Below are positions 10,550 through 59,075 of a DNA stretch of 64,000 nucleotides, one piece after another. The notes under the pieces were generated by a model that saw only the letters and a list, made by a program, of their open reading frames with translations, was not told the origin of the DNA and made no database searches. The stretch is from NCBI RefSeq assembly GCF_029168945.1, contig NC_083601.1, positions 21,480,160-21,544,159 on the forward strand, in the 5' to 3' direction. This stretch comes from Cannabis sativa (taxonomy: Eukaryota; Streptophyta; Magnoliopsida; Rosales; Cannabaceae). The translations under genes and the position numbers were made by a program. Each line of letters opens with the position of its first letter. The first letter of the stretch is position 1.

Positions 10550-11236
10550 CAATCACATTGTGAGTCATTAGAACCCATTTAACCAAATTATGGGCAGGTG
10601 TCCAATTTTAGTAGTTAAATGGGCTACATATATGTCTTGAGGCCCATTATCGACTTAGTGGTATTGGACAACTGGACTTTCTCAAACCTTAAAAATACAA
10701 TAAATCTTATAAAAACTTAAAAATATGATAGCAGTTTGTAACAATTTTGTAACCACTTGTAATAATTGGTTATTTATAATGTATGATTTGTAAACATCAA
10801 TTATAAAAAAGAATCATTATTACAAATTTGTAAAATATTTACACATAAATTCTGTATTTATAATTCTACCCTTATATATATTTATAATCTTTCCAAATTT
10901 CATATTTTTATTTTATTTTCTTCAAAATATTAGACATTTTAAAAAATGATCCTTTATCTAAGTAGTAGTCCTTGCCTTTTAGATTACTATTATTCTTTCA
11001 ATTAATTCATATCACTTTCACAATGAAACACGAGCCATGAAGTATAAAGATTTTTATTTTAAAAAGAAAGAAAGGGAAAAGATCAGTCCAAACTTACCCT
11101 ATAGCTAGTGTATTGTTATTTAAATTAAATGAGTAATAAAATGGAAAAGAAATTTATGAAACAATGGGAATCATTATTTATATTAAGGTGAATAGTGACA
11201 TATATATCTAAAGTTTTGAGTTGATAAGTTGTATAT
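10550..11236. other. AT-rich intergenic DNA
   Basis: No coding potential or bounded repeat seen. The last five bases (TATAT, 11232-11236) are the 5' copy of the Ath1 TSD. Confidence 0.6.
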
Positions 11237-12427
11237 TGTTAGGCTATTTTTAGCCTATGTTATGGATCCGATTTATGTGCATTCTTAGCTGTGTTGGGAC
11301 GGAATTACGCTTGTTTTCTATGTTTTCAGGTTCTTTGGAGTAAAAGAGGTCTCGGGTGCATAAATTCACTGAAAAACGTGCTGAGCCGAAGAAAAACTTC
11401 ATTTTATGAGTTTTTGCATATCTGGCCGCGGCGATGAAGAGTCTCGCCGCGGCGAGATACGAGAAACAGAAAGTGCCTAATTTTGGCACATTCTCGCCGC
11501 GGCGAGAGGAAGTGTCGCCGCGGCGAGATCCCGTACGGACCGGGGGTAATTTCGTCCATCGAACCCTAAATTTCAAGTATAAATAGAAAACTGCGATTGG
11601 AAGTCAGAGAGAGCGATTTGGAACCCTAAAACACAGCTGAGAGCGGCAGGAAGAGCGTAGAGATTCAAGTGAAGATCCAGAATTCACCCTTAACAGTTCT
11701 TTTCTTTATTCCTCTTTAATTTATTAATGTTGAATATTGCTATAGAAATGGTTATGGATTTGTTTCTGAACTAAATTTCCCATTTAGGGAGGATGATGAT
11801 TGTTGTTTAATGTTTTCCTAGTTAATGTTTAATTACCATTCCTCAATTCTTGTGTGTGTGAAATTATCTTAATTTGTGTTTAATTTCATGTTTAAGATTG
11901 ATCACCTTGTGCATGCTCTATGATCTCAATTCAAAATCTGAAAAGTGAGAATTGAGAATGCTAAAATTAAGATAATCGATGTTCTATGTGAAACGAAAGT
12001 ATTTACATGACTTATGTGACGAGTAGATTATTGCTTAATCTTTGATTTCATGTTAGTTTAATTAAGGAATTAATTAGATAACATGTGATTTAGAATCTAG
12101 AAGATCTGAAAGGAGCTAGGTTATTTTATAATCTGTCATTCACCCCAAGAATAGGATAGTAATTAATCATTAACAATTTGGGTAAACAACAACAGGATTC
12201 TCCTCCCTATTGTCTCATCTTGCTCAACTTTAAACTGTGTTATTAAGTTTTCTGAATTTCTTCCAAATTTTACTGTTTTTAAACCATAATTACTTTTGAT
12301 TTACCGAATAGAATCATAAGTATAATTTAGTGGTACTTAATCCAATTCCTGTGGGATCGACCTCACACGTGTGAGATTTTACTACTTGATTGCGTATACT
12401 TGCGTAGCGTTTAAAAATATAGCAACA
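11237..12427 (+). repeat. Ath1 5' LTR
   Basis: Begins TGTTAGGCTATTTTTAGCC (itself an inverted repeat) and ends AGCAACA. It holds the palindrome array at 11421-11526 and a TATA box at 11578-11585, so transcription should start near 11610. The R-U5 part (from about 11880) is clearly related to the LTR of element D. A minus-strand open frame of about 108 codons (11250-11576, repeated in the 3' LTR) is judged a by-product. Confidence 0.95.
11421..11585 (+). promoter_or_regulatory. Ath1 LTR promoter: four spaced CpG palindromes plus TATA box
   Basis: CCGCGG-centred palindromes have centres at 11428.5, 11449.5, 11499.5 and 11520.5, giving spacings of 21, 50 and 21 bp. The second and third are perfect 14-mers (CTCGCCGCGGCGAG); the fourth is a perfect 12-mer; the first is degenerate on one side. 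TATAAATA follows at 11578-11585. The same array lies at +10035 in the 3' LTR. Position just upstream of TATA suggests protein-binding sites in U3 (inference). Confidence 0.75.
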
Positions 12428-12433
12428 AGTTTT

Positions 12434-12451
12434 TGGCGCCGTTGCCGGGGA
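12434..12451 (+). other. Ath1 primer binding site
   Basis: TGGCGCCGTTGCCGGGGA begins 7 bases after the LTR end. The TGG start fits pairing to a tRNA 3' CCA. The sequence is that typical of Athila elements, usually assigned to tRNA-Asp; the tRNA identity was not checked. Confidence 0.85.
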
Positions 12452-12699
12452 ATTGTTTAAAGATTAATATTACATAAAATTATACTAACTTCTACTTTGG
12501 TATATTTTCTCTTGCTGATTTTTCTAACCTTTTTCTTGCAATATTTTCTTTATTTATCTCAGGAATCCTAAGTGCATGCGCCGTCAAGGACAATCAGTCA
12601 TATTACCAGTTGATCCTGAAATTGAGAAAACCTGCAGGAAGAATCGAAAGAACAAGAGGCAAGAAAGAGTTTCAAAGAATCGCCGAAACATCGTAAATC

Positions 12700-13734
12700 A
12701 TGGCCGCCAATGTGAACAATAATGTTGGGAACAATGGGCGTAATAATGGTAATAATGGAGGCGTCGTGGAAGATCAAGCTAATGGCCGAAGCTTGAGAGA
12801 TTACATTCTCCCTACTCGACGGGAGTGCGGTCATGTATTAGGCCACGGCAAAGGTGGATGCAAACAACTTCGAGATCAAACTCTCGCCATCCTTCAAATG
12901 GTGCGGTCTTCGGTTCGGTTGGTGGTCTCCCTTCGAAGATCCTAATTTGCATCTCTCTAACTTCATGGAACTTTGTGAAACTTTTAAAGTTAATGGAGTT
13001 AGCGACGATGCCATTAGATTGAGGTTGTTTCCATTCTCTCTCGAGAGAACGAGCCAAGAGTTGGTTGAATTCTTTGCCACCGAATTCTATTGCTACATGG
13101 AATGATCTCGGCAACAAAATTCTTGTCAAAGTTCTTTCCTCCAGCGAAGTCTGCAAAGCTGAGAGGAGAAATTAATAATTTCTGCCAACAAGATAATGAA
13201 TCTCTCCATGAGGCCTGGGAGAGGTTTAAAGATCTGATCAGGAAGTGTCCCCATCATGGTATAGAGAAGTGGATGCTGGTTCACAACTTCTACAACGGGT
13301 TGGTTGGTAATACTAGAACTCTAATAGATGCAGCAGCTGGCGGAGCTTTTATGAGAAAGAGTGCTAATGAGGCATATGATCTATTGGAGGAGATGGCTCT
13401 AAACAACCAGCAGTGGCCAACTGAAAGGAGTCAATCCAAGAAAGTAGCTGGTGTGTTAGAAGTCGATGCCATCACAAAGTTAACAGCTCAGGTTGAGGCA
13501 TTGACTAAAATCATTGCAGGGCAAGCTAAGCAAGCCCAAATTGTTTGTGAGTTATGTGGAGGAAGTCATCACTTTTCGGAGTGCCAAGCAGATGTGGATG
13601 ATTTGCCAATGGATGAAGCTAAGGCCATTGGGAATTTTTCACGTAACAACAACAACAACAATTATGGGTTCAACCGAATAACAACCGAAGAAATAGTGGG
13701 TTCTATCAACAAAGAAATCGAACCAACGGTTTAA
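12700..13734 (+). pseudogene. gag: Ath1 gag, frameshifted
   Basis: Gag would form the virus-like particle in the cytoplasm. The first ATG is at 12700, followed by an Asn/Gly-rich start and a RSLRDYILPT motif typical of Athila gag. The conserved capsid part is spread over three frames: from 12854 (ANNFEIK, then DPNLHLSNFMELC and DAIRLRLFPFSL) and from 13090 (KFLSKFFPPAKSAKL, ESLHEAWERFKDL, FYNGL). A CxxC...H...C knuckle-like motif (CELCGGSHHFSEC) follows near 13550. Frame changes fall at about 12820-12855, 12885-12925 and 13045-13100, with another before pol (about 13680-13790). Clustered single-base shifts in an otherwise young element are odd and may be sequencing errors. Confidence 0.85.
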
Positions 13735-13779
13735 TCGGCAACAATCCTGCGGTGGAAGTTCTAGTTTGCGGACAGATTC

Positions 13780-16700
13780 TTGCTCCAATTCATGACCGAA
13801 ACTAGATCTTCAATTAAAGACACACGGACTCGGATGGGCCGCCTAGCAACTCGGGTAGCAACCCGCCCTCAAGGAAATTTGCCTAGCACCACTGAAGTTA
13901 ATCCTAAAGAAAACTGCAAGGCAATTACCCTGAGGAGCGGTAAGAAGTATAATGGGCCTGAGTTACCACAACCAGTTGAGGTAGATGTAGAAATAAATGC
14001 TCAACCAGTGCCAACACCAACACCGACAGCAGAGAAGGCTACTGATAGCCCAACACCACCACAACAGTCTCCACCGATTAGTATTGATCATCATGTAAAG
14101 ATGCCATATCCTCAGAGGCTGAGAAAGTCAAGCTTAGACAAGCAGTTCACCAAGTTTCTAGAAGTCTTCAAAAGACTTCACATTAACATTCCTTTTGCTG
14201 AAGCTCTAGAGCAGATGCCAAGTTATGTGAAGTTTATGAAGGAAATTTTGTCAAAGAAGAGGAAGATGGAAGACTATGAGACAGTGGCTCTAACTGAAGA
14301 GTGTAGCGCTATTCTACAGAAGAAACTCCCTCCAAAACTCAGAGATCCAGGGAGTTTCACTATTCCTTGTACTATTGGTAAAATTGAAGGGATAAATGCA
14401 CTATGTGATTTGGGAGCCAGTATTAACTTAATGCCCTTGTCAGTGTTCAAAAGATTGCAGCTAGGTGAAGCAAAGCCAACTACTGTAACTCTTCAATTGG
14501 CAGATCGATCGCTAGCTCACCCTAGAGGAGTCATTGAGGATGTGTTAGTAAAGGTGGACAAGTTCATCTTCCCAGCTGATTTCATTGTTCTGGATATGGA
14601 AGAAGACAGTAATGTTCCTATCATTCTGGGGAGACCTTTCTTGGCAACAGGGAAAGCACTAATTGATGTTCAGAAAGGAGAGTTAAAGCTAAGGGTACAA
14701 GGAGATGAAGTTGTATTTAATGTACTCAAAGCAATGACCTATCCTACAGCTAGTGACAACTGTTTTGCAATTGATGTGGTGGATCAGTTGGTGGAGACAA
14801 AGACACATGCTGAAGATCCTCTTAATCTGACTTTGGTACAAGAAGAGGTGGTAGAACAAGATGGTAAGGAAGCTTTTGAATATGCTATGTGGCTCGATTC
14901 TTATGGACCGCTGAATAGAAAGTATTACGAAGAGTTAGGAGTCATACCAACAAAGCCTACCCCATCTACTGAAAAGCCTCCTCAACTAGAGTTAAAAGTC
15001 CTACCAGAGCATCTCAGGTATGAATATTTGGGTGAAAATAAGACACTTCCTGTTATTGTGGCTTCTTCCCTATCTTCTGTAGAGACAGATAAGCTATTAC
15101 GGGTTTTAAGGAAGCATTCAAAAGCCATTGGATGGACTCTAGCAGATATTAAAGGGATCAGCCCTTCAACTGTAATGCATAGAATCTTAATGGAGGAAGG
15201 AGTGAAACCAACCATTGATGCACAACGTAGATTGAATCCACCAATGAAGGAGGTTGTCAGAAAAGAAGTTTTGAAGTGGTTAGATGCCGGGGTAGCGTAT
15301 CCTATTTCAGACAGTAAATGGGTGAGTCCAGTTCAAGTTGTTCCAAAGAAAGGAGGGATGACGGTGGTGAAGAATGAGAAGAATGAACTCATCCCAACTA
15401 GAACTGTCACGGGATGGAGAATTTGCATTGACTACCGAAAACTCAACAAGGCCACAAGAAAAGATCACTTTCCACTCCCATTCATTGATCAGATGTTAGA
15501 CAAGTTGGCAGGACAAGAGTACTATTGTTTCCTTGATGGATACTCAGGGTATCACCAAATAGCTATAGCACCGGAGGATCAAGAGAAAACAACATTCACA
15601 TGTCCATATGGTACTTTTGCTTTTCGACGAATGCCATTTGGGCTATGTAATGCTCCAGCAACATTTCAGAGGTGTATGATGGCTATATTTTCAGATTTAA
15701 TAGAAAAGTGCATCGAGGTGTTCATGGATGATTTTTCAGTGTTTGGCTCATCGTTTGACCAATGTCTGAGTAACTTGGAGTTGGTTTTAGCAAGATGTGA
15801 AGACTCTAATTTGGTGCTGAACTGGGAAAAGTGCCATTTCATGGTTACAGAAGGAATAGTGCTGGGACATAAAATCTCAAAAGAAGGTATTGAGGTTGAC
15901 AGAGCCAAAGTATCTACAATTGAGAACTTGCCTCCTCCAATTTCAGTGAAGGGAGTTCGAAGCTTTTTAGGTCATGCCGGGTTTTATAGAAGATTTATCA
16001 AAGATTTCTCCAAAGTGGCCAAACCGCTATCCAATCTTCTTGCTAGTGGAGTTCCTTTTGAATTTGGGAAAGATTGTCTTGAAGCATTCCAAATTCTCAA
16101 GGAGAAGTTAATCTCAGCACCGATTGTGACTACACCAAACTGGGAACTACCTTTTGAAATCATGTGCGATGCAAGTGATTATGCTATTGGAGCAGTCTTG
16201 GGACAACGGGTTGACAAGGTATTCAGAACCATTTATTATGCAAGCAAAACCTTGAATGATGCCCAACTAAACTACGCTACTACAGAAAAAGAGATGCTGG
16301 CCATAGTATTTGCTTGTGACAAATTTCGACCCTACTTAATTGGTAATAAAGTGATAGTGTATACAGATCATTCAGCAATCAAATACTTGATGACTAAGAA
16401 GGATGCCAAACCACGACTGATTCGATGGGTTCTTCTTTTGCAAGAATTTGATCTAGATATAAAAGACAAGAAGGGTACTGAGAACTTGGTGGCAGATCAC
16501 TTGTCAAGACTAGAGCTGGAAGAAAGTCAGAATACAAAAGAGGTACAAATAAATGAACAATTTCCCGATGAACAACTCTTTAGTGTGAGGGAAAGTCTGA
16601 TGGTACCATGGTATGCTGATTATGTTAACTTCTTGGCTGCCAATATCACTCCTCCTGAGCTATCTCGTCAACAACTAAAGAAGTTCTTTTCTGAGGTGAA

Positions 16701-17889
16701 ACATTATTATTGGGAAGAGCCAATCCTCTACAAGCACCGTGCGTATCGGATAATAAGAAGGTGTGTGCCCGAAGAGGAGATGTATTCTATTCTTAATCAC
16801 TGTCATGCTTTACCATGTGGGGGACACTTCAGTGGAACTAGAACAGCTGCCAAGGTGTTGCAAAGTGGATTCTTTTGGCCAACACTTTTCAAGGACGCTA
16901 GTACTTTTGTGAAGGCATGTGATCGTTGTCAGCGTACAGGAAACATCTCAAGGAGAAACGAAATGCCTTTGACAGGAATCTTGGAAGTTGAATTGTTTGA
17001 TGTATGGGGGATAGATTTTATGGGTCCTTTTCCTTCATCGTTTAGCAATTTATACATCCTATTAGCTGTGGATTATGTGTCAAAATGGGTGGAAGCTGCA
17101 GCCACACCAGCTAATGATGGTAAAACAGTCCTTCGGTTCCTTCAAAAGAACATATTCACTCGGTTTGGAACTCCCCGAGCAATCATAAGCGATGAAGGGA
17201 GTCACTTTTGCAACAAACAATTCGAAGCACTCCTTTCGAGATATGGTGTTCGTCATAGAACAGCTCTACCTTATCATCCGCAAAGTAATGGCCAAGCTGA
17301 GATTTCTAACCGGGAAATAAAGATGATTCTGGAGAAAACGGTGCAGAGATCAAGGAAAGATTGGTCAAGAAAGTTGGATGACGCATTGTGGGCTTATAGA
17401 ACAGCGTTCAAGACACCAATCGGGATGTCACCATATCGGTTGGTGTTTGGAAAGGCTTGTCATCTACCGGTAGAGCTAGAACACAAAGCTTATTGGGCAA
17501 TGAGAACTCTAAACATGGACTTAAAAGCTGCTGGGCAGAAAAGACTACTACAGTTGGATGAGTTGGAAGAATTTCGAAATGAAGCATATGAGAACGCCAA
17601 GATTTACAAGGAAAGAACTAAGAGATGGCATGACAGAAATCTAGTCAGAAAAGAGTTTCAACCTGGTCAACAAGTTCTACTCTTTAACTCAAGGCTAAAG
17701 TTGTTTCCTGGTAAATTAAAATCAAGGTGGTCAGGGCCATTTACGGTGATCAAAGTGTTTCCCTACGGAGCAGTGGAACTAAAAGGTGAAAGTCCTAATA
17801 CTTTCAAAGTAAATGGACAACGATTAAAGCTCTACTTGGGAGGTCAATTTGATCAAACCAAGTCCGCCATGATTCTGGCGCCACTTTGA
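13780..17889 (+). CDS. pol: Ath1 pol: protease, RT, RNase H, integrase
   Basis: Open for 1369 codons; the first ATG is at 13792, and the frame is probably continuous with gag in intact relatives. Order by residue: gag tail and linker (1-190); aspartic protease with DLGAS near 210; RT (about 500-700) with [11 protein letters not shown] and the catalytic FMDD near 648-651; RNase H (about 788-910) with CDASD, EKEML and YTDHS; integrase zinc finger of HHCC type (about 1006-1055); integrase core with catalytic Asp near 1077 (GIDF), Asp near 1137 (SDEGSHF) and Glu near 1173, a D,D-35-E arrangement. It copies the RNA genome and inserts the cDNA. All catalytic residues look present. The integrase C-terminus is followed by noncoding DNA. 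Confidence 0.96.
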
Positions 17890-18826
17890 AGATCTCGATC
17901 AACGTCTAGCTGAGTGACGATAAAGTTAGCGCTAATTGGGAGGCAACCCAAGTTTTCTTTTGATTTAGTTGAACTCTCTTTTTAAGTTTACTTTTATTTT
18001 TCTTGATGTTCATTCTGTTTCGTTACTGAAAAAAAAAAATAAAAATACAAAAAAAAATTTTTTGGTTTTTGGTCAGTGGCCGCGGCCATGAAATGTCTGG
18101 CCGCGGCCAGAATTGTTGGACAGAAAGGAGCATATTTTCGACATTTCTCGCCGCGGCGAGGGGACATGCCGCCGCGGCGAGAATGGACTTACAGAACCAC
18201 CCAGTTTTTCACGAATTCTCGCCGCGGCGAGGGTATAGGCCGCCGCGGCGAGATTGCCAGATTTCCCTTTTTAAATCCCAAAAACCCTAACATTTCAAAA
18301 TCACACCTCATTCAAACACTTTCTTCTCCCAGCCGAAAACCACCTCTTTTCACCCTAATTTCTTCATCTAATCCCATTCAAACCAATTTTCCTCAAAATC
18401 ACCCATAAACTTTCATCCCAAATCATCATAATCTCTTATTTCTCTCATCTAACACTCTTTTCCTCTAAAAATCCATTCCAAAATCCCTAAACCTCACCCA
18501 AATTTCAGAAAAATCACTATTCATCTTCTTCTTCCCTAAAGCTTCAAGGTTCTCATCAATGGAGGTTGACTAAAGAGTGATTTTCATTGAGGTATTGATT
18601 CTAAGACTTCCATTCCAATTTTTATTGAAAAATTTCTGAATTTGTTGGATAGTTTTGAATTATTTGGTGGATATTTGGGATTTTTGCTATATACATTGTT
18701 GAAATTGATTGTGTGAATAGAATTGGGTTAAATTGAAAGGGATTTTAATCCCGGGAAGTCAATTTTTAAGGGGAAGTGCTGTCAAAATTTTGAAAAATCT
18801 TGAAAGTTAGAAAAAATTTGGGAGTT
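17890..18826 (+). promoter_or_regulatory. Ath1 pol-to-ORF spacer with six-palindrome array
   Basis: Contains a hairpin TTGGGAGGCAACCCAA (17936-17951). Then come six CCGCGG-centred palindromes with centres at 18082.5, 18103.5, 18153.5, 18174.5, 18224.5 and 18245.5, i.e. spacings 21, 50, 21, 50, 21 bp, the geometry of the LTR array. A TATA-like TTTTAAAT lies at 18269-18276, about 23 bp past the last palindrome. A CT- and A-rich leader of about 550 bp runs to the next ATG. The layout looks like an internal promoter for the downstream ORF (inference). Confidence 0.6.
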
Positions 18827-19999
18827 ATGGGTCCAAAGAGGTCAAGGGTTAATGAAGAGGGAGCTTCATCATCCAACCCATCTAGGGGACGCCCTAACCT
18901 TGATAGAGTTAGGTTTGCCAACGTGGAGGCTCAAGAGAGGTTTTTAAAATTGAAAGATAGGGCGTTCATTGAAGATAGAGGGATAGACATAGTCAACCTA
19001 AGCCAAACTGCCAATATTCCCCCTGCTTTTGCATCTATTAGGGATCAAATCCTACAGAGGCAGTGGACTAAGTTCGTCGATGTCACTGAGCGTGGTAATC
19101 AAACTCTAGCTTTGGAGTTTTTAGCCAACTGGCCTGAAAGAGAGGAGGGAAAAGTTAGAGTTAGGGGGGTTAGAGTGCCTGCTACCGTAGACGCTATTCA
19201 TGCCCTTTATGAGCTCCGAACTTTCACTTATGAAGAACAACAATTGAAACAACAATTCTATAATAGAAGTACGAATTATGTGGATATGGCTGAGACTCTA
19301 GGGTATCCTGGCCTTAGGTTCCATGAGCTTAGTGGAGTACCATACCAATTATACCGATGTGAACTCAATCCAGTGGCCAAGGCTTGGCTATACTTTGTTA
19401 GTGCAAGGCTGCTCCCCAACAAGCATTTTTCTGATGCTCAAATGGACAGACTTAAATGGGTTTACGGTATTATGAAAGGGTATAATCTGAATGTGGGGGA
19501 TATTGTTCGAACAACCTTTGATATTATGGTTGAGGGATCTTCCGGTGGAGGACTGGGGTTGGCTGGAATAATCACTGACCTCTGTGAGAAACATGGAGTA
19601 CCACAGTACTCATATGATACAAAGGTACCGCCCCAGCGTCCTATTACTTTGGCGACTGTTCTGCGCTTCAAACCTCCTCACCCTCATGGTCAACCGCCAG
19701 TTCAAGGAGGTCCTCCGGCAAGAGAAGAAGAGGAACGTGAGGACATCGAACCACCACGTCTTGTCGGGCCTCTTGACCCTGCCATGCAGTACACTCACAA
19801 TCAGCTGAATTATCTGATTCAGCAGAACATTCATATGCAGAATTACATGGCCCAGAGGAGTATCTTCGATGAGCAGCAGGTGGCTCAATTGAACACCCTT
19901 GTCACGAGGATGAACATCGGTGTGGATGATCCAAACTATTTTCCCATGCCACCCCGTTTCAACCCGTATGACCAGCCACCGCCGCCGAACCCCTTTTAA
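18827..19999 (+). CDS. Ath1 ORF downstream of pol (Athila ORF-1 / 'env-like' position)
   Basis: About 390 residues from the first ATG at 18827 (MGPKRSRV); upstream in-frame codons lack an ATG. The start is basic and Ser-rich. The middle (FLANWPERE, RVPATVDAIHALYEL, ARLLPNKHFSDAQMDRLKWVYGI) matches the ATHILA ORF-1 / putative plant transposon protein families by recognition. The end is Pro-rich (QPPPPNPF). I see no convincing signal peptide or transmembrane segment, so an envelope role is not supported by this sequence; function is unknown. Stop TAA is immediately followed by CAG|GTAAGT. A related domain occurs in element B at 42099-42617. Confidence 0.85.
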   Translation: MGPKRSRVNEEGASSSNPSRGRPNLDRVRFANVEAQERFLKLKDRAFIEDRGIDIVNLSQTANIPPAFASIRDQILQRQWTKFVDVTERGNQTLALEFLANWPEREEGKVRVRGVRVPATVDAIHALYELRTFTYEEQQLKQQFYNRSTNYVDMAETLGYPGLRFHELSGVPYQLYRCELNPVAKAWLYFVSARLLPNKHFSDAQMDRLKWVYGIMKGYNLNVGDIVRTTFDIMVEGSSGGGLGLAGIITDLCEKHGVPQYSYDTKVPPQRPITLATVLRFKPPHPHGQPPVQGGPPAREEEEREDIEPPRLVGPLDPAMQYTHNQLNYLIQQNIHMQNYMAQRSIFDEQQVAQLNTLVTRMNIGVDDPNYFPMPPRFNPYDQPPPPNPF

Positions 20000-21271
20000 G
20001 GGGCTCAGGTAAGTTTCTCTCCTCCTGGTTTATTTTCACACATTGGGGACAATGTGCATTTTAGTTTGGGGGGGGGAACTTAATCTATTTTTTCGCGTTT
20101 ATTTGTTTTAGTTTAGTTTGTTTTAGTTTTTTTTTAGTCTTGCGTGATAGCTAAATTGAAAAATGGATTGAATTGTTGTTATTCACTTGTGCAATGGATT
20201 GAAACATAACTGTGTGCTTGACTTGCAACTGTTTGAATTAAATTGGATGTGTGCTAGGAAGTGATTCATGTAGGTTTAAAACATTTGCTATTCTCACATA
20301 TCACTTGTGTTCTATTTGGATTGTGGAATGATTGATTGAACATGGAATAGAATTTGTTTGACATACTCTCTTGAAGCGAAATCCTTGATGATTTTTGTTT
20401 GGAAAATGATTTAGGCAAATTTTCTTTGGATCGATTGAGCCTTTCAAGCCTACCTGAAAAAAATTTTCCTTAGTATACCCAAAGTTGAGCCTTAGCCTGT
20501 TTTAAAATTTTTCACCACTTCACGGAGCTGAATTCGTTATTCTAAACTCTTTTTCACCCTGAACATATTTTGTTATGCCATAAGCCTTGAAACAAGTTTG
20601 GGGGGGGAATAAGTGCTGTAAGTGAAAAAAAAAAAATATATAAAGTGTAGGAATGAGAGATTGAAAAAAAAAATAATAAGAATATTGTGTGTTGTGCCTA
20701 TGAAAAAAAAAAAAGAATAAAAATGTGTCTTCTTGAAAAAAGTTAAGAAAATTATGAGGTGCACACACAAGAAAAAAATTGCAATCTCTTATTTCTGTTT
20801 TTGGGATATATGGAAAGAAAGCAAAATAAATGTCTAGGCTTGCTTGGTTAATAGTGCTTATGGTATAGTATAGCCTAAATGACTTCTCATCTACCCATGT
20901 ACCTAAGCCATGTGATTTTAACCGAAAAAGACCTATTGATTCCAGGTAGAAATTTGTCAACATTAGTGGAGAGAGGTATGTCATTCAAACTTATTGATCA
21001 TGTGTTAGTGGGATGTTGGAAAGTTAGAACAGTTGTGATATTGATGGGAATTGCGATGCTTTATGTTTGTATGAATTACTTACTTGTAAACTGCACATTC
21101 AACTTAGTTCTTAGAGTTGGCAAGTTGAAATTCTGGTTATTGAAGGATTGAAGTTGTGCAGGTGGTGGTAACAATTTAATTGTTGGAAAGTTCAGCTATC
21201 ATTTTTAGTTTTTTTTTTTAGTTTAGTCTTAGTCTACTCGGGGACGAGTAAAGAGTCAGTTTGGGGGAGTT
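20000..21271 (+). other. Ath1 3' noncoding region with conserved signals
   Basis: Landmarks shared with element D: splice-donor-like CAG|GTAAGT (20006-20014); a 7-bp stem hairpin CACATTGGGGACAATGTG with loop GGGA (20039-20056); AGTTTG plus a G-run (20063-20076); a second AGTTTGGGGG tract (20595-20607); an identical 23-nt block (20956-20978) ending in a GGTATG donor-like site; a hairpin TACTCGGGGACGAGTA, loop GGGA (21235-21250); and the polypurine tract just before the LTR (about 21261-21271). Open frames here (20520-20984 minus, 20879-21151 plus) are low-complexity or unmatched and are not annotated as genes. Confidence 0.7.
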
Positions 21272-22462
21272 TGTTAGGCTATTTTTAGCCTATGTTATGG
21301 ATCCGATTTATGTGCATTCTTAGCTGTGTTGGGACGGAATTACGCTTGTTTTCTATGTTTTCAGGTTCTTTGGAGTAAAAGAGGTCTCGGGTGCATAAAT
21401 TCACTGAAAAACGTGCTGAGCCGAAGAAAAACTTCATTTTATGAGTTTTTGCATATCTGGCCGCGGCGATGAAGAGTCTCGCCGCGGCGAGATACGAGAA
21501 ACAGAAAGTGCCTAATTTTGGCACATTCTCGCCGCGGCGAGAGGAAGTGTCGCCGCGGCGAGATCCCGTACGGACCGGGGGTAATTTCGTCCATCGAACC
21601 CTAAATTTCAAGTATAAATAGAAAACTGCGATTGGAAGTCAGAGAGAGCGATTTGGAACCCTAAAACACAGCTGAGAGCGGCAGGAAGAGCGTAGAGATT
21701 CAAGTGAAGATCCAGAATTCACCCTTAACAGTTCTTTTCTTTATTCCTCTTTAATTTATTAATGTTGAATATTGCTATAGAAATGGTTATGGATTTGTTT
21801 CTGAACTAAATTTCCCATTTAGGGAGGATGATGATTGTTGTTTAATGTTTTCCTAGTTAATGTTTAATTACCATTCCTCAATTCTTGTGTGTGTGAAATT
21901 ATCTTAATTTGTGTTTAATTTCATGTTTAAGATTGATCACCTTGTGCATGCTCTATGATCTCAATTCAAAATCTGAAAAGTGAGAATTGAGAATGCTAAA
22001 ATTAAGATAATCGATGTTCTATGTGAAACGAAAGTATTTACATGACTTATGTGACGAGTAGATTATTGCTTAATGCTGATTTCATGTTAGTTTAATTAAG
22101 GAATTAATTAGATAACATGTGATTTAGAATCTAGAAGATCTGAAAGGAGCTAGGTTATTTTATAATCTGTCATTCACCCCAAGAATAGGATAGTAATTAA
22201 TCATTAACAATTTGGGTAAACAACAACAGGATTCTCCTCCCTATTGTCTCATCTTGCTCAACTTTAAACTGTGTTATTAAGTTTTCTGAATTTCTTCCAA
22301 ATTTTACTGTTTTTAAACCATAATTACTTTTGATTTACCGAATAGAATCATAAGTATAATTTAGTGGTACTTAATCCAATTCCCTGTGGGATCGACCTCA
22401 CCTGTGTGAGATTTTACTACTTGATTGCGTATACTTGCGTAGCGTTTAAAAATATAGCAACA
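21272..22462 (+). repeat. Ath1 3' LTR
   Basis: 1191 bp, nearly identical to the 5' LTR, with the palindromes at 21463-21561 and TATA box at 21613-21620. Followed by the TSD TATAT (22463-22467). Confidence 0.95.
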
Positions 22463-22467
22463 TATAT

Positions 22468-39683: not shown

Positions 39684-42600
39684 ATGGGCAAAAAGGCTGG
39701 GCGTCTTGTCAAAATGTCTGCATTGTCTGGTGATGGTTCGTCGTCCCCCTCGCCAACAGTGGAACCTCGCTTGTCTCCCACTAGGTCTGAATCGCCTCCA
39801 TGCACACCAAACCTAGGTAAGACTTCTTCTTCTGTAAGTCTTCCAAGACGTTTTACATGCTCCATGTCCATTCCTTTTGGGTCGCCTAAAGACCATCCTC
39901 CCCCATCTACCACGTTACCCAACCCTCTCCCTGAGTCTGACTCGTCTCAGCCCCCCTGTCGAAGCCAAAACCGAAAAGGAAAACTGTTTCCTCTGATGTT
40001 ACTCCTTCGTCAGTGTCTAAGAAAATGAAAACTCCTCAACCTAGTGTGTCTGAGCCAAACATAACTAATGCACCGTTTTACTCCAATGATAAGTTGCTTA
40101 GATTTCAAGAAAATGTTTGTCGTCGTCCACTGTGGCCTGAATATCGAGTTAAACTCAAGTACTTGTTAGGTTTTATGCCCTAAATAAAACTCCATTTCAA
40201 TGTAATCTATTTTATTCAACATCAATAAAGAAATAGAAGTATTTTTCATTCATTTGTGTATGTTTTGGTTCACTTTATCAATTGCTTGTCTATTTGATTT
40301 ATAAATTCATCTTAAACCCTTTTCACATACTTGATCATGTTTATTGTGCTGTCATCACATTGGAAAGTAAACATGACTATGTGAATAAAGTTTCCTAGAT
40401 TTATCAGACACAGGGTTTTACTGATATGATAATCTACAACAAGAGTTTACTTGTATTTGGAGAAATACTATGTTCTTTCCAAAACATTGGTTAAAGTAAA
40501 GCGCAGGTTGGATGCATGGAGTATGCATCGGAAGGGACCGATATTGAACTTTGACTTAGATTTAATTAAACTTACCGTAAAATCTATTCAAGTCAATATC
40601 GCCAAGTTGATCCTAGATCAAATGTTCTTAATCCTGTTATGATTAGGCTCAATCTTGAAAGGCTATTCGTGTTCTGTGATTTGTTAGTTAAGCCTACTTT
40701 TAGGTCAGGGTGATACGTACATTTTGGGAACACGGTAGTGCAATTGAGTGGGAGCGCTAGCATAAACATGGAATCTATAGCTTCTATCTGGCGAATAGTA
40801 AGCAAAGGATGATCTCCTTCGAGCTTGACCAAACGAACATAAATGGTGGAGTACTCATTTCACAAAAGCTGAAATATCATTTATACGGGGTCAAGTGTTT
40901 TAAGGATAAAATACATAGTAGGGTGTTACGGTAATCTAATCCCTTTACAGTGTAGATCATTCATATAGAGGATCATTGATCACATTAGGATTATAACAAT
41001 GGATAACTAATGATGCGTCTATATGGTGGAACATATAGAGCATTCTATATACTGAGAGTGCAATTCTAAGTTCTATGCGTGGATTCAACGAAGAATTAAT
41101 AAGTTAGTGAATTTTAGTGCTAAATTCTTGATCTACTTATTGGAAGCTCGGTTATATAGACCCATGGTCCCCGCACTAGTTGAGATAATATTGTTTGTAA
41201 GACTCATGTAATTGGTTTTAATTAATCAATTATAATTCACAAATTAGACTATGTCTATTTGTGAAATTTTCACTAAGTAAGGGCGAAATTGTAAAGAAAG
41301 AGTTAATAGGGGCATATTTGTTAATTATGATACTTTGTATGGTTCAATTAATAAATATGATAAATGACAATATTATTTAATAATTATTTATAGTTATTAA
41401 ATAGTTAGAATTGGCATTTAAATGGTTGAATTAGAAAATTGGCATTTTTGAGAAAATCAAATACAAAAGTGTTAAAATTGCAAAATTGCAAAAAGCAAGG
41501 CCCAAATCCACCAAGCCATGGCCGGCCACTTTTGTAGGAATTTTAAACTGATATTTTCATTATTTTAATGCCAAATAATTCAAACCTAACCCTAGTGGAA
41601 TGCTATAAATAGATAGTGAAGGCTTCAGGAAAATTACACTTCTGAATCAGAAAAACCTGAGCCTTCTCTTTCTTCCTTGGCCGCCACCCTCTCTCTCTCT
41701 TCTTCCTTTGAATTTCGAAATTACCTTAGTGATTAGAGTAGTGCCCACACACAGCAAGCAATACCTCAATCATAGTGAGGAAGATCGTGAAGAAAGATCA
41801 TCAGCAAAGGAGTTTCAGCATCAAGGATTCAGAGAAAGAGATCCAGGTTTAGATCTTGATAATACTCTGCTATAGAAAGGATACAGGGGTTAGAGATCTG
41901 AACGGAAGGAGTCATTTAATTCCGCTGCACCCAATGTAAGGTTTCTTAAACTTTATACGTGTTTATTTCATCGTTTTAGAAAGTTCTTATTTAGGATATT
42001 AATAAACATACTTGTGAGTAGATCTAAGATCCTGGTAAAATAAATTCCAACAGTACTTTCCTAGGATTAAGGAGTTAATTGAAAAACGTGGGTGGTCCTT
42101 GTCTGTTACTCATCTCCAACCCCCAAATGAGAACCTGGTCAGGGAGTTTTATGCCAACTTAGATGAGAGCATTCTAAATAAGAAAAGTCAGTTCCTCTAT
42201 CTTGCTGATATTAGAGGTAACAGGTTTCGGTTTGCCCCCTCAACAATTAGTTGTGTCCTGAAAATCAAAACCATCACCCATCCCACATTTAATGATGAGT
42301 ATAAGCCTGAGGTTAAGGATGTAGGTGCTGAAATTACTGGCAATCCCAACTTTGTTTGGAATGGAAAAGAGTTACCTGTCACAGTTCTCTCAGAGTTTTA
42401 CAGGGTCCTTCATAAAATTTCTATGTCCAACTGGTGGGCAAATTCACATATTTCCACGATCAACTACAACACAGCTAGATTTCTGTATGCCTTAGGCACT
42501 GGTGTGAGCATTGATCTTCCAACTCTCATGTATGATCGTATTATGAGTTCTGCCTCTGCCAAGAGTATCAAGCGTACCCTGCCTTATCCCAGCTTGATTA

Positions 42601-44225: not shown

Positions 44226-45530
44226 GATATGTTAAAATTTACCGTAATATCTATTCAATTCAATATCACCTAGTTGATCCTAAATCAAATGATCTTAATC
44301 TTGATATGTTTAGGTTCGATCTCAAGAGTATTATTCATGTTCTTTGATTTGTTAGTTAAGCCTACTTTTAGGTCAGGGTGATACGTACATTTTGGGAACA
44401 TGATAGTATAATTGAGTGGGAGCGCCAAACATAGATATGTTATCTATAACTTCTATAGGTATTTAGAAGTGAAACGTTTCTTTTGAGCTTGGCTAAACAG
44501 AGATAAATGGTTGAGTACTCATTTCACTTCGCTGAAATATCATTTATACGGAGCTAAGTGTTTTAAGGATAAAATACATTGAAAGGGTGTAACTGTAATT
44601 TAGTCCCTATACAATGTAGATCATCCATTAGAGGATCATTGATCAAATTAGGATTATAACAATGGATAATTAATAACGTATCTATATCGTGGAACATATA
44701 GAGCGTTCTATATGACTGAGAGTGCAATTCTAAGTTCTATGCGTGGATTCAACAAGGAATTAATAAGTTAGTGGATTTACTTGGTAAATTCTTGATCTGC
44801 TTATTGGAAACTTGGTTATATAGGCCCATGGTCCCCATACTAGTTGAGACCATACTGCTTGTAAGACTCAGTTAATTAATTTTAATTAATCAATTATAAT
44901 TCTAAAATTAGACTATGTCTAGTTTATGAATTTTCACTAAGCAAGGGAAAAATTGTAAGAAAAGAGATTCTAGGTTTTATTTGTTAATTAAGAGACTTTA
45001 TATGTCTAATTAATAAATATATTAAATGACAATATTATTTAATAATTAATTTTTAGTTATTAGATAATTGGAATTGGCATGTAAGTGGTTAAATTAGAAA
45101 ATAGGCGTTTTTGAGAAAATGGGATGGAAAAATGACAAAATGGCAAAATTGCAAAGTGGGCCCAATCCACTATCCATGGCCACCACACTTAGTGTATTTT
45201 ACCATTTATTTTTCTATTATTTTAATGCCAAATAAATCTAACCTAAACCTAGGTGGTTACCTATAAATAGGTAGTGATGGCTTCAAGAAAAAGATGATGC
45301 ATCTCATTCCTTCAGAGAAAATTCTAAGCTTTCTTTCCTATACCCTAGCCACCACTTTCCTTCTCTTTTCTTCTTCAATTTTCGAACCTTGAGTGAATGA
45401 GTGAGTGCCCACACACATCAAGTGGTATCTCAATCATAGTGTGGAATATTGTGAAGAATCCAATCAACAAGAACGAGAATCAGACTAAAGAAGGAGAGAA
45501 AGAGATCCAGGTTCAGATCTTAGTGATGCT

Positions 45531-46734
45531 TGTTGCGAAAATTATTAATTACTACGCAAGTGCACGCAATCAAGTAGTATACTCACGCAAGTGAGGTCGA
45601 ACCACAGAGAATTGGATTAATTACTAAACTATACTTATAATTCTATTTGGCAAATCAAAAGTATTTATGATTGAAAAAGGAAGAAAGAAATTCAAGAAAA
45701 TTAAAGAAACAAGTGAATATTAATCAAGATGAGAGATTAGGGAGGAGAATCCTGTTGTTAGTTTACCACAATTGTTAATGCCTAATTGCTATCCTTTTCT
45801 TGAAGTGAATGACAAATTATAAATTAACCTAACTCTTTTCAAATCTTTTAGGTTCTAAATCACATGTTCTTTAATTAATCTCTTAATTAAACTAACATGA
45901 AATCAGCATTAAGCAATAATCTAAATGTCACATAGGCTATGCAAATACTTTCGTTTCACATCAAAACCTAGATTATCTAATTTTAGCATTCTCAATTCTC
46001 ACTTTTCAGATTTTGAATTGAGATCATAAAACATGTAGAAGGTGATCAAGCTTACACATGGAATTAAGCACAAATATAGATAATTTCACAAATCAAGATT
46101 GAAGGAATGTCAATTAATCATTAACTAGGCAAAACTTAAAACAACATTCATCATCCTCCCTAAATAGGAGTTTAGTTCAAAACATCCATAATCAAATCCA
46201 TAATTAACATTGAAACAGAAAATAGCATAGAAAAATTAAAGAGAAGAGAAAGAACTAGTTGAAGCAATTGATCCGGGTCGCCACAAGCCGCTTTTCTAGC
46301 CTCCTTCTTTGTTTCTAGGGCTCCCAATCTGAATTATCCCTAATTTTCACGAGCTCTCTCTATTTAAACCAAGTCTTATCTTTAAAATTCGTGAAATTAC
46401 GAAACTGCCCAAAAATCTCGTCACTGGGGTCCCCGTCGCGACTGGCAATGCCCCCGTCGCGACGGGGTTAAACTTTGAAACTTCGAGATTTTCTCTGCCA
46501 GTTCCCGTCGCGACTAGCATGTTCCCTGTCGCGACTGGAACAGGCAGCGACACAATTTTTGGTTTTTCTTCTCGATTCTTTCACCACTTGTCCTCAATTC
46601 TTGTTCATACTTTTTTTAAACACTCGAGGACCTGAAACAAAAGAATCAACCATAAAATAGCCCTAAAACTAAAAACAAAGAGTGAAAACTAACCGAAAAT
46701 ATGACCCAAAACTTAGACTAATTTTAGCTTAACA
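45531..46734 (-). repeat. Element D 3' LTR
   Basis: Plus-strand reading TGTTGCGAAAATTATT to AGCTTAACA. All four GTCGCGAC palindromes are intact here. Confidence 0.92.
46361..46535 (-). promoter_or_regulatory. Element D LTR promoter: four spaced GTCGCGAC palindromes plus TATA-like box
   Basis: GTCGCGAC has centres at 46438.5, 46459.5, 46510.5 and 46531.5: spacings 21, 51, 21 bp. On the minus strand TTTAAATA (46361-46368) follows about 70 bp downstream. The 5' LTR copy is at 61641-61741 with the same spacing, but there two sites have decayed to GTCGTGAC and ATCGTGAC. Confidence 0.75.
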
Positions 46735-47539
46735 AATTCCCCCAAACTAGATTCTTACTCGCCCTCGAGTAAGATAAAAAAATAAATACAACTAACTACT
46801 AATTTACTAACTACGCTATGAGATAATCATAATACTACTGCCTCATGTGCTGTTCTCTTTCATTGCTCAAACTAGAATTTCAATTCTACCAACTCTAACA
46901 ATTAATTTAGATGCTCAATTTGTCACATACTGCACAAACACAAGATGACTTCACAATCGAAACAATGTTAAAATGGTTTTACTATTTCCAGCCATTCCAC
47001 TACCCGATAACTCATATGCTTGCATGCTTACCTCTCTCCACTAATGTTGACAACATCCTTTCGGAATCAATAGGGCTTTTTGAGGTTTAGAAAGTATGGC
47101 TTAGATATTTGGAAAATGAAAAATAATTTTGGCTAAAGATATCATAAGCACAAAAATAACTCACAAGCTTCTTCTAATTTCAAATTTCCCAAAGTGTTCC
47201 CATAACTAACCACGATTGAGAAATTTTTTTTTTCTTTTTTGTTTTCAACATCACTGAATTTTATTATTTTTCTTGAATCATGTTTTTTTTTTTCAGTGAT
47301 ATTGATCTTACCACATATCTCTTTTTTCTCAATCTTGCAAGTTTCTTTTTTTTTTCTTTTTTTTTTTCTATCTTCTCACGCACACCATGTATTTTGCTAC
47401 CCCAAACTAATTATATAGCTTATGATATCATTGATAAAATAGTGAGGACAAAATTAACAGTGTAGATACATATTTCGGTTCAACAGGTGAAGAACAAAAC
47501 AAGTTTAGGCTCAAGAGGGTTAACTAAGGATAATCATTT
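46735..47539 (-). other. Element D 3' noncoding region
   Basis: Minus-strand signals shared with Ath1: polypurine tract AGTTTGGGGGAATT (46735-46748); 7-bp stem hairpin TTACTCGAGGGCGAGTAA (46755-46772); the identical 23-nt block (47029-47051) running into GGTAAGC; and an internal AGTTTGGGG tract (47399-47408). Poly-T/poly-A runs at 47220-47370. No gene. Confidence 0.7.
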
Positions 47540-47544
47540 CATGG

Positions 47545-48413
47545 TGTTATAGTGAGATTTCTCTCACCTAGAAACTCGAGACCAGACCCCTCTTTGAAGG
47601 ACATGTGTATCCAGACTTCCAGTGAAGGCTGAAATGTCCAGGAGAGGCTTCTCGAAGTTTAGACCTCGCCCAGGATAAAACCAGCGAGGTATCGCGGATG
47701 CGACTTAATTCATACCGCATAACCGTAATCCTCATCATACAGGGTAGACCCAACTCGCATATGTCAGAACATGTGCGACTGCCTCCCTCTATACCTCCGC
47801 GGCAAGTATAGAGGCCAATGCCCTATGATGCAATTTTGGTCCCAATGACCCAATAGCCCTAACGGACCAATGTAAGTTCGCATGTCCAGATGTTACCAAT
47901 TTCAGCATGCGACGTCTGTAACGAGCGATCATCTAAGGACGCAGACGTTCCAAACGTACGTGCGACCCTACGAACTCAACAGACGGAACACGAACGGTCA
48001 ACTCGCAGATGCGGAGGACGCATACGTTGATGAGTTCAGTAACTGTCATATACTTATTAATGTTAACGTTGTCTGAGTTTAATCATGACAATTTAATGTG
48101 TAAATAATGGATTAACAATAAATGTGATCCTCATGTAACCGATTGGGCACCTGCTTTGTATATAAAGGGGTGATCCACCGTGAAAATGCAGCTACGAATC
48201 CCTTGCTACAGTGGACTAAGCAGAACAAAATCTGACTGAACCACTATATTTCATTGTCTTCTGTATATTTTCCAGCTCTATTGTCTGTTATCGCATTCCT
48301 ATTGGAGTACTCGCTGTTTTAGGTTGAATACTCGCATTTATCATCTCTCTAACAATTCTATCTTTTACCAGCTAAATTACACTTCTTGGTGTTGTGAAAT
48401 TCTAGTAACAACA
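47545..48413 (+). repeat. Element E 5' LTR
   Basis: TGTTATAGTGAG to AGTAACAACA. TATATAAA at 48159-48166 predicts a start near 48190. A 9-bp stem hairpin (47786-47814, CCTCTATAC/GTATAGAGG) lies upstream in U3. Confidence 0.95.
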
Positions 48414-48415
48414 TT

Positions 48416-48433
48416 TGGCGCCGTCTGTGGGAA
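48416..48433 (+). other. Element E primer binding site
   Basis: TGGCGCCGTCTGTGGGAA, two bases after the LTR end. This form is usual in Tat/Ogre elements, which are generally assigned tRNA-Arg as primer; not checked here. Confidence 0.8.
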
Positions 48434-48478
48434 ACTCTGATTGTAAGAGTTTATTTACCTCAAAGAACATCACTCAAC

Positions 48479-51037
48479 ATGGCTGGAAATCACGCTAACA
48501 GAGCTAACAATGAATCCATCAACATTGGAACAATGAACGTACCATTGCCTGGAACCGGAGTGCCGCCTGTAGACGTCATCAACGGCGGGGTAGGGAGGAG
48601 CAACATCAGACCACTCAACCTGTTTCCAGAAACAACTGGTCCTCAAGCTGGAGGCACGTCCACACCGCCGGCAACCATGCACTTTCCCCCTGTCACCCCG
48701 GCGGTCGTGTCCGAAGGAATGGTCCAGCTCACGACTGATCAATACGCTGCAATCCAGGATCAGCTGCGAGCACTACAAGCCGAGGTAGACGGACAGAGTC
48801 GCGCTCGACACCCTCCTCGGGTCCCTGCCGTTCATAATGAAAACCCTCAGGTAACAGTTTCTCGACGTCAAACTAACCGTGTACGCAGGGAGCGAAGAAC
48901 TGATCCTGAAATCTTGGATTTGAATCACCCGACGTCGAGAGACCAATATGCAAGGTTGCCTAACCAGAGCACGCGAACCGACGAGGATCCCGAGCGCCGC
49001 AACCCTCGCAGTCGTCATCTTCGAGATAACGACGCAGAATCAGCCTCTTCATCCTCGCATAACCGCACTCCAAGCAGATATACGAGGTCTGGCTCTGTGC
49101 AAACACAGCAGGGAGGACGCTACCGTGTACACCGAGGTGATCTGCGTGATCATCTCAATGCAGTCTTTAGGGCGCGCTCCCGCGGCCCGCGCAACACGGA
49201 GACACTCCATGATCCCCATATGGGCGAACAGGGTGTCAACGCAGTTGCCAACCCGCCTACCGCGCCGATCGCGACCACAGGGATTAACATCCCTTCAAAC
49301 CTTGCCGCAGTGGCTGCGAGCCCCACTGTTGTAGCGACTCCACCTCCTGCGACAGGAGGAATCGATCAAAGTATGCTTCTGCAAGCTTTGAAAATGCTCG
49401 AACAGCAGCGTAAGCCCGTATACAAGCTGCACGGCACCTCGCCGTTTACCGCAGAAGTGCGACAGGCCCAACTTCCAAAGGGATTCCGTTTATCTGAATC
49501 CCTCAAGTATAAAGGTACATCTAACCCGTTAGACTACCTAGAGAAATTTAACACCATAATGGAAGTGGACCAGGTGCCGCAACTCGCGAAGTGTCGCATT
49601 CTCGCGGCTACGCTTGAAGAGAATGCCCATGATTGGTTCACCCAATTGCCAGAGGCATCGATATCGACATGGGAGAACTTCGTCGATCTATTTCTCACAC
49701 ACTTCCAGGCCACGATGACGTATAGGCCACCCTATACGACTTTGGCGAACATCAAGCAAGAATCTGGTGAGTCTTTGCAGAATTATTTCAAGCGTTTTAA
49801 CGCTGAGGTAACAAAAGTTGAGAAGGCTCCCGAGTCTTCGCTTGTTTGCATGTTAATAACAGGTGTCCTGCCAAGAACCGACTTCTGGAAAGAGCTGCAG
49901 GCCCGAAGGCCAGAATCCTTGGTAGAATTCTTCGCCATGGCCGAACCTCATAAGAGAATCGAGAACTCCCTGGCGGAATTGGAAAAGGGCAAGAACAAGA
50001 GGCGATCACCCATACCGCGGTCGCGATCCCGCAGTCCGCGAGGAAAGAATTCCAGGGGCCGAAGCCCCAGAAGACGCAGTCCACGCAAACCGCGGAGCCC
50101 GAAGTTGGCCAAGTCGCCTCCTAAAAAGGAGTCCTCGCCCAAAAGAAAAGGAGGACCTCGCTTCGTCAACTATACTGAACTCGCCGTCCCTCGAGACCAC
50201 ATCTATGCGGTTGAGGAAAGGAACGGCGTCTTCAAGAAGCCGCCCCCCATCAGGGGAAATCGCGACCGAAGAGACCCCAAGAAGTTCTGTAAGTACCACA
50301 AGGATATCGGTCACACTACCCTTGAATGTTGGGTCTTGCAGGACGAGATTGAAGAATTAATCAGACGGGGAAAATTCGATAAGTATAGAAGAAACGAGGA
50401 AAGTCATCCCCGAGCGGATGACAAAGGAGAAAATCAGAATGCGAGTGGCTCTAGAGCACCTCGCAATATCTTGACTATAATCGGAGGACCACACATCGCG
50501 GGCGACTCTCGCAAATCCCAAGAACGGTATGCCAGAGAAGCCAAGGAAAAGCCGCTTACCAATGTGAACAATCTTGGTGAACGGCCAGAGAAGCTCTTCA
50601 AGAGAGACTGCGAGGACATTGTCTTCATGGAGAGCGATGCGAGATGGGTCCACCACCCGCATTCTGACGCACTTGTGATAATTGCCAATATAGGTGGAGA
50701 TAACGTCCATCGCATATTGGTCGACAATGGAAGCTCGGTAAATTTACTGAACTTCCAAGCTTTCAAACAAATGGGGCTACAAGAAAAAGATTTGCGGCCC
50801 ATGACATCGAGCATCTATGGCTTCACGGGAGATGTCATAGCTATAAGAGGGATGATCAAACTCCCAATCACTTTGGGAACTGCCCCTATAACTGCCAAGT
50901 CGATGGCCGACTTCGCAGTAATTGATCAATATTCGGCATACAACGCCGTGATTGGACGGCCGATTCTAAAGGAGATGAAGATCGTAACTTCGATCTATCA
51001 TCTAACAATGAAGGTCCCCACTCCTTCCTCGGAGTAG
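48479..51037 (+). CDS. gag: Element E gag and protease
   Basis: 852 codons from MAGNHANRANN, 46 bases after the PBS. N-terminal part is low-complexity and Arg/Ser-rich; the retrotransposon gag domain spans about 335-490 (GFRLSES, WFTQLPEASISTWENF, ESLQNYFKRFNAEV). An SR-type basic stretch (about 507-560; RSRSRSPRGK, SPRRRSPRKP) suggests RNA binding. A zinc motif of C-x2-H...H-x4-C form lies near 603-616 (CKYHKDIGHTTLEC). The aspartic protease has DNGSS near 747. The frame stops at 51035-51037 where relatives would run on into RT, so the protease-RT link is broken by a frameshift. Gag forms the particle; the protease cuts the polyprotein. Confidence 0.92.
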   Translation: MAGNHANRANNESINIGTMNVPLPGTGVPPVDVINGGVGRSNIRPLNLFPETTGPQAGGTSTPPATMHFPPVTPAVVSEGMVQLTTDQYAAIQDQLRALQAEVDGQSRARHPPRVPAVHNENPQVTVSRRQTNRVRRERRTDPEILDLNHPTSRDQYARLPNQSTRTDEDPERRNPRSRHLRDNDAESASSSSHNRTPSRYTRSGSVQTQQGGRYRVHRGDLRDHLNAVFRARSRGPRNTETLHDPHMGEQGVNAVANPPTAPIATTGINIPSNLAAVAASPTVVATPPPATGGIDQSMLLQALKMLEQQRKPVYKLHGTSPFTAEVRQAQLPKGFRLSESLKYKGTSNPLDYLEKFNTIMEVDQVPQLAKCRILAATLEENAHDWFTQLPEASISTWENFVDLFLTHFQATMTYRPPYTTLANIKQESGESLQNYFKRFNAEVTKVEKAPESSLVCMLITGVLPRTDFWKELQARRPESLVEFFAMAEPHKRIENSLAELEKGKNKRRSPIPRSRSRSPRGKNSRGRSPRRRSPRKPRSPKLAKSPPKKESSPKRKGGPRFVNYTELAVPRDHIYAVEERNGVFKKPPPIRGNRDRRDPKKFCKYHKDIGHTTLECWVLQDEIEELIRRGKFDKYRRNEESHPRADDKGENQNASGSRAPRNILTIIGGPHIAGDSRKSQERYAREAKEKPLTNVNNLGERPEKLFKRDCEDIVFMESDARWVHHPHSDALVIIANIGGDNVHRILVDNGSSVNLLNFQAFKQMGLQEKDLRPMTSSIYGFTGDVIAIRGMIKLPITLGTAPITAKSMADFAVIDQYSAYNAVIGRPILKEMKIVTSIYHLTMKVPTPSSE

Positions 51038-51039
51038 GA

Positions 51040-59070: not shown

Positions 59071-59075
59071 CATGG

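Follow-up and report, generated by a model that had tools for sequence, protein, structure and literature searches.

It is proposed that the CpG-rich palindromes of Ath1, an Athila-type retrotransposon of Cannabis sativa, form a cis-regulatory module that is probably read by one dimeric factor at two promoters, that of the LTR and a putative second one inside the element. The palindromes stand in spaced arrays both in U3 and between pol and the env-like ORF (Table 1). The window, that is, the whole 64,000-nt stretch of DNA that was analysed, corresponds to C1:21480160-21544159 of a 770.7-Mb assembly of C. sativa.

Ath1 has the domain order of Ty3/gypsy elements, with Retrotrans_gag followed by RVT_1, RNase H and, last in pol, integrase; the protease match in pol falls slightly under the Pfam cut-off. 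Several C. sativa proteins are identical to the pol product over the aligned part (63% of the queried region), and its RT-integrase portion shows 74-77% identity to many plant proteins among the 120 matches listed. The element combines its Ty3/gypsy pol with a PF20167 3' ORF, a feature of the Athila lineage, to which it appears to belong as judged from the name given in the initial annotation and from the link to PF20167 in the available part of PMC11728184. A match to the Rfam family snoR71 (RF00097; 56.1 bits, cut-off 40) lies at 13156-13262 on the minus strand, antisense to the gag ORF; it may be a snoRNA-like piece inside gag, or the Rfam family may have been built from retrotransposon sequence.

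Table 1. Retrotransposon features and palindrome arrays in the window (positions are those of the window).
Feature	Positions	Strand	Description
Ath1 element	11237-22462	+	5-bp target duplication TATAT at 11232-11236 and 22463-22467
Ath1 5' LTR	11237-12427	+	TGTT...AACA ends; 99.5% identity with the 3' LTR
Ath1 5' LTR array	11425-11524	+	Four CCGCGG-core palindromes, centres 21/50/21 bp apart
Ath1 LTR TATA box (TATAAATA)	11578-11585	+	About 58 bp past the last palindrome centre
Ath1 gag ORF	13069-13734	+	PF03732
Ath1 pol ORF	13765-17889	+	RT, RNase H, integrase
Ath1 internal array	18079-18249	+	Six CCGCGG-core palindromes, centres 21/50/21/50/21 bp apart
Proposed first exon of env-like mRNA	18261-18546	+	C-rich, nearly G-free
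TATA-like box (TTTAAAT)	18270-18276	+	About 24 bp past the last internal palindrome centre
Leader remainder	18591-18826	+	T-rich, C-poor; 0 ATG against 6.6 expected
Ath1 env-like ORF	18827-19999	+	PF20167 (Transposase_32); basic N-terminus MGPKRSR
Ath1 3' LTR	21272-22462	+	99.5% identity with the 5' LTR; followed by target duplication
Ath1 3' LTR array	21460-21559	+	Same array, centres 21463.5-21555.5
Element D	45531-61940	-	Target duplication ATGCT at 45526-45530 and 61941-61945
D LTR array	46435-46535	-	Four GTCGCGAC palindromes, 21/51/21 bp
D other-LTR array	61641-61741	-	Two of four palindromes intact (61716.5, 61737.5)

The palindromic repeats of the Ath1 LTR cluster upstream of the TATA box, as is the case for the RMs of Sireviruses. 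Their positions and spacing in the 5' LTR (centres 11428.5, 11449.5, 11499.5 and 11520.5) are as the initial annotation had reported them, and the array is repeated in the 3' LTR. That annotation also had the palindromes acting in U3, which is too narrow a placement: the same module stands inside Ath1 in an array that had been overlooked, between the pol stop (17889) and the PF20167 ATG (18827), ahead of the env-like ORF. The internal and LTR arrays are 76% identical over 129 bp. Their 11-nt spacers agree at 9 of 11 positions in pair 1 and at 7 of 11 in pair 2, and the spacers overall at 42 of 68 (shuffle mean 18.5; reached by 0 of 2000 shuffles), indicating that the two arrays are homologous pair by pair.

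With a TATA-like box and an unusual leader behind it, the internal array resembles the upstream part of a promoter. The segment 18261-18480 contains 2 G and 74 C, and is the sole C-rich one among the 12 most G-poor 220-nt stretches of the window that were listed. The leader is nearly G-free over about 250 nt, and between 18300 and the ORF (527 nt) there is a single ATG where 7.6 would be expected. The Ath1 family and a second one, P0002, both retain this arrangement before the 3' ORF, a TATA-like box followed by a G-poor leader with 3-4 G in 250 nt. The C-poor, T-rich stretch 18590-18826 is preceded by AGGT at 18590 and has a similar counterpart in the P0002 family; this stretch may represent an intron in the 5' UTR of the env-like mRNA. 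A sigma-70 promoter scan was set aside as meaningless for a plant.

The arrays are far beyond chance. A count of 8-bp palindromes with two or more CpG gives 31 in the window, whereas 100 dinucleotide shuffles averaged 7.6 and never exceeded 14; the largest cluster of the window has five in 120 bp (one of them CCGTACGG, beside the Ath1 array) against at most two in the shuffles. When shuffled locally, 3 of 2000 sequences reached the observed count for the Ath1 U3, none for the internal array, and 0 and 14 for the two copies in element D. All 31 pairs of identical 8-bp CpG palindromes less than 130 bp apart fall within the arrays, and these pairs occur only at distances of 21, 50/51, 71/72, 92/93 and 121 bp. 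Rfam at the gathering threshold had no hit over the Ath1 arrays.

From the centre outward, the half-sites follow the pattern G-C-Y-G-N-Y, positions 1, 2 and 4 being invariant in 28 half-sites. Position 3 is C in all 20 Ath1 half-sites (8 in the LTR, 12 internal) and T in all 8 of the intact D LTR, so that the family-wise concerted difference in sequence noted earlier between the Ath1 and D LTRs (C in 8/8 against T in 8/8) holds. The second site of Ath1 pair 1 shows a symmetric change, on both arms, at position 5 when the LTR and internal arrays are compared. In the first Ath1 LTR site perfect symmetry is confined to the central 8 bp, the flanks being TGGCCG on the left and TCGCCG on the right; this site looks like a half-changed intermediate.

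A nested element at 47544-59070 interrupts element D. The interior of D matches part of gag only, for which reason D is probably non-autonomous; there is no match to the Ath1 env-like protein and no palindrome array in the interior of this incomplete element. The earlier claim of GTCGCGAC arrays in both D LTRs stands for 46435-46535 (centres 46438.5, 46459.5, 46510.5 and 46531.5), whereas at 61641-61741 only two of the four sites are intact and the remaining two have been altered by CpG-type transitions. Five differences separate the arrays of the two D LTRs, of which three alter a CpG. D matches the Ath1 LTR array at 27 of 72 positions, which is not above chance (reached by 230 of 2000 shuffles), and resembles the second and third internal Ath1 pairs (32 of 72; 14 of 2000). 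The nested element, of Ty3/gypsy type, has an additional RNase H match and long ORFs in antisense at 54870-56210 and 56211-57008, and resembles Tat/Retand types. D itself lies within one of the two copies of a repeated segment (40568-42063 versus 44235-45521 plus 61940-62142, 81-86% identity), and this segment is the same repeat that flanks a 21-bp pair at another locus, L153.

The P0002 family, with an env-like protein that shares 54% identity with that of Ath1, is the most informative for what has been kept. Its LTR carries six GTCGCGAC palindromes at 22/52/12/19/22 bp in locus order and its internal array six GTCGCGAC at 22/48-51/12/19/22 bp. All six palindromes are identical between LTR and internal array, but the spacers share 30 of 83 positions, a value that 188 of 2000 shuffles attain (mean 24.6). 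Both the palindromes and their distances have been retained, and the sequence between them has diverged to chance level. Internally the order is array, TATAAA at 21 bp, G-poor leader, two ATGs and a C-poor stretch; the two ATGs, 270-370 nt past the array, count against the explanation proposed here. Compared with the window element, the P0002 LTR spacers match at 32 of 68 positions (7 of 2000 shuffles) and the internal ones at 23 of 66, which is chance (1102 of 2000), and short pieces of the leader still match between the two families. Because similarity is retained in the LTR spacers, in the likeness of D to the internal array and in these leader pieces, the families share descent; shared descent explains part of the common layout, and the two families are therefore not independent. 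The order that they share thus reflects conservation, not independent origin.

The survey of other loci covered 25 fetched stretches (20 + 5), all picked by their palindromes; two families, together with a P0001-like subfamily and element D, were read in depth. Clusters of at least three intact palindromes with at least two CpG occur in 14 of the first 20 stretches, the neighbouring CCGTACGG being counted in several, and the other six have fewer or decayed sites. A PF20167 match is present in 7 of the 25, and palindromes lie about 550-640 bp upstream of it in 7/7, a single intact pair in L164 and L166. Six of the seven also contain an LTR in the same orientation (L164, whose LTR is inverted, was left out), and in these six and the window element the LTR and internal cores agree in 7/7, being of CCGCGG type in the window, L162, L163, L165 and L166 and of TCGCGA type in L143 and L157; both counts of 7/7 are biased upward, since the loci were picked by palindromes, and they come from two sets of closely related elements.

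In the whole genome, 1310 copies of CTCGCCGCGGCGAG were counted against a single one of the reversed control, and two YCGCGR sites with centres 14-44 bp apart 12440 times against 3296. Spacing was sampled from 58 listed forward-strand pairs, which all come from the initial 2.6 Mb of contig C1 and include many related copies: the distance is 22 bp in 17 of these, 21 in 16, 19 in 9, 31 (12 + 19) in 8, 20 in 2 and other values in 6. One fixed spacing, as the initial annotation supposed, is not what the families exhibit. Although 21-22 bp is the commonest distance among the pairs listed (33/58), other families have, in sense order, 22/19/12/52/22, 22/19/50/21 or 20/50, and pair spacings of 12, 19, 20, 38, 59 and 68 bp also occur. 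A further array type, ATGCCGCGGCAT/GGGCCGCGGCAT at 21/46/22 bp with one site imperfect, was seen at L156 (1171-1260), where a C-rich, G-poor stretch follows and an inserted LTR lies about 1 kb away.

Similar pairs occur outside the close kin of Athila. L149 and L153 are related repeats (76.6% identity over 623 bp) with one 21-bp pair each, consisting of two GTCGCGAC sites in L149 (near 3098) and of one GCCGCGGC and one mixed site in L153 (near 3022); the two repeats are dissimilar to Athila LTRs yet show the same two sequence options. Near L149 lies a gypsy pol fragment with just 39.5% identity to Ath1 pol. In L150, a pair of intact sites at 21 bp stands some 1.7 kb upstream of a gag whose identity is no higher than 30-37%. 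In viral contigs the GCCGCGGC 21-bp pair was found in at least 120 stretches, the fetched loci having no third site at 70-72 bp, and no Athila relative was confirmed there. Bacterial genome contigs included three plant-like ones (L001, L002 and L003), in which, incomplete and non-host as they are, there were no clustered CpG palindromes or array and no PF20167 match. L001 (NZ_QPKJ02000021.1) and L002 (NZ_JABGCL010000066.1) are similar 9-kb contigs from an Athila relative with 66% amino acid identity in pol; these plant-like contigs in bacterial records are probably contamination.

From the arrays and their locations, the agreement of LTR and internal sites in the elements read, the leader anatomy and the chance-level spacers of one family, we infer protein binding, pairing of dimers, promoter activity and co-regulation. 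Each palindrome would be recognised by a protein that binds specific DNA sequences as a dimer, and a pair at 21-22 bp, or two helical turns, would put both dimers on the same face of the helix. Elements bearing env would carry one copy of the module in U3 before the LTR TATA box and a second between pol and the PF20167 ORF, where it would precede an internal sense promoter made up of array, TATA-like box, nearly G-free leader and ORF. One factor could in this way switch on, or keep open, the genomic and the accessory-gene transcripts together. Since the palindrome sequence is family-specific at both places, any change of sequence must occur at both sets. The earlier idea of paired sites for a dimeric protein is thereby retained as far as the sites go, which do look like such pairs, and dropped in its restriction to U3. 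The spacing variation between families exceeds a strict helical rule and counts against the model.

The binder could be encoded by the host or by the element. In the second case the element's own PF20167 protein would bind the palindromes at both promoters as a VANC-like autoregulator or anti-silencer, co-evolving with its sites by family. In the elements read, the palindrome sequence of both arrays does track the env family, and the ORF opens with a basic stretch; the PF20167 ORF of a sunflower Athila is predicted to be nuclear in the available part of PMC11728184, and VANC motifs shift together by family according to the available text of PMC5735166. Against this, the CGCG pairs of L149/L153 and L150 belong to repeats outside the close kin of Athila, an LTR array is present in D although its interior lacks a match to the Ath1 env-like protein, and the low-confidence structure model of the protein (pLDDT 65) yielded no fold match of any weight. 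We regard this reading as unlikely, and give the same rating to its fullest form, an Athila-type two-promoter regulon in which a nuclear PF20167 protein, misnamed envelope, would bind its own palindromes at the LTR and internal promoters and each family would re-code the protein and all of its at least ten sites together, giving private, self-controlled expression. A host factor is more likely than an element protein because similar 21-bp pairs exist in repeats that are not close Athila kin, and the pairs of L149, L153 and L150 speak for one that is tolerant at position 3.

The palindromes might instead pair as RNA in the genomic and internal transcripts, feeding small-RNA silencing or some other RNA step, a role that has been suggested for the LTRs of maize Sireviruses. 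The initial annotation discounted an RNA role on the ground that the array lies upstream of TATA, an argument that fails: each genomic RNA includes U3 in its 3' end, and the internal array lies within the transcribed body and so in genomic RNA as well. The arrays can be folded as long RNA stems (raw folding energy -79.0 kcal/mol for 135 nt of the Ath1 U3), and palindrome regions of maize Sireviruses are small-RNA mapping hotspots in the available parts of PMC5311732 and PMC10760457. Hairpins, however, need neither two-turn spacing nor a fixed dyad sequence, any palindrome being sufficient, and the position of the internal array upstream of its TATA-like box is that of a promoter element; an RNA role seems to us quite unlikely.

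Equally to be considered are dense CpG/CHG clusters that set the methylation state in the manner of a CpG island-like platform, with no dimer sites involved. CpG observed/expected is 1.36-1.63 in the arrays and 0.47-0.81 in the remaining LTR and interior, two to three times the rest, and the CpG-altering share of the differences between the D LTRs fits such a platform; but density requires neither palindromes nor a 21-22 bp mode, and we hold this explanation to be very unlikely. Tandem duplication of a 71-bp unit with common descent and no function, the geometry being simply inherited, is highly improbable: internal pairs 2 and 3 do match at a 71-bp shift (75.6% over 86 bp) and the Ath1 LTR and internal spacers are homologous, but this alternative, which the initial annotation had named as a refutation, is insufficient for P0002 arrays that share palindromes and geometry, not spacers, and for the symmetric two-arm change in the second palindrome of Ath1 pair 1.

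The closest described architecture, contrary to the initial annotation, which knew of no matching system, is that of the Sireviruses, whose palindromic repeats sit at the same two places: in the available text of PMC2829016, the RMs of these Ty1/copia elements are family-specific CpG-rich palindromes upstream of the LTR TATA box, and env-bearing Sireviruses have further palindromes just upstream of ENV, where an internal promoter was suggested and not conclusively identified. The likeness, palindromes before the LTR TATA box and before ENV, extends to the window and to 7/7 PF20167 stretches, all palindrome-chosen. The systems differ in backbone (Ty1/copia there, Ty3/gypsy pol here) and in core (CGG-CCG there, CCG-CGG or TCG-CGA here); no fixed pair spacing is reported in the available text of PMC2829016, and a TATA-like box and leader accompany the hemp array. 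The hemp arrays may thus be viewed as the Ty3/gypsy counterpart of a known architecture, not a Sirevirus RM system but one that would work like it.

Other systems share single features. A promoter for the ENV ORF is named in Athila6A of Arabidopsis, an internal promoter for the 3' ORF of an Athila element, and no palindrome array is mentioned in the available text (PMC4977677). The VANDAL DNA transposons, with VANC as a known motif-binding protein (PMC5735166; PMC10398659), have short non-coding motif arrays that diverge together by family (PMC5735166); as described in the available parts of these papers, the motifs are not palindromes at fixed spacing, and the hemp binder is only putative. 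Among the titles and abstract openings listed by searches of open-licence papers, we found no description of an array of this kind in Athila. Spumaviruses (foamy viruses) possess an internal second sense promoter upstream of their accessory genes; the comparison, a second sense promoter in a retroelement, is by analogy only, as the sequences are unrelated and the hemp promoter is putative. New here are the occurrence in gypsy elements, the pair spacing, the concordance of LTR and internal sites despite spacers at chance level, and the box and leader that follow the internal array.

Splicing, suppression of a stop codon and an internal promoter have each been invoked for the expression of plant retroelement genes downstream of pol (PMC2829016, available text), and a 2020 review has env-like genes transcribed from the 5' LTR (PMC7264820, available text). 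With the module at both places and a TATA-like box and leader behind the internal copy, the idea of an internal promoter becomes directly testable. Copia and gypsy elements would also be seen to share one palindrome solution, whether by separate origin or by retention, and families that differ at a dozen sites at once would be natural experiments on how a regulatory code can change without loss of function.
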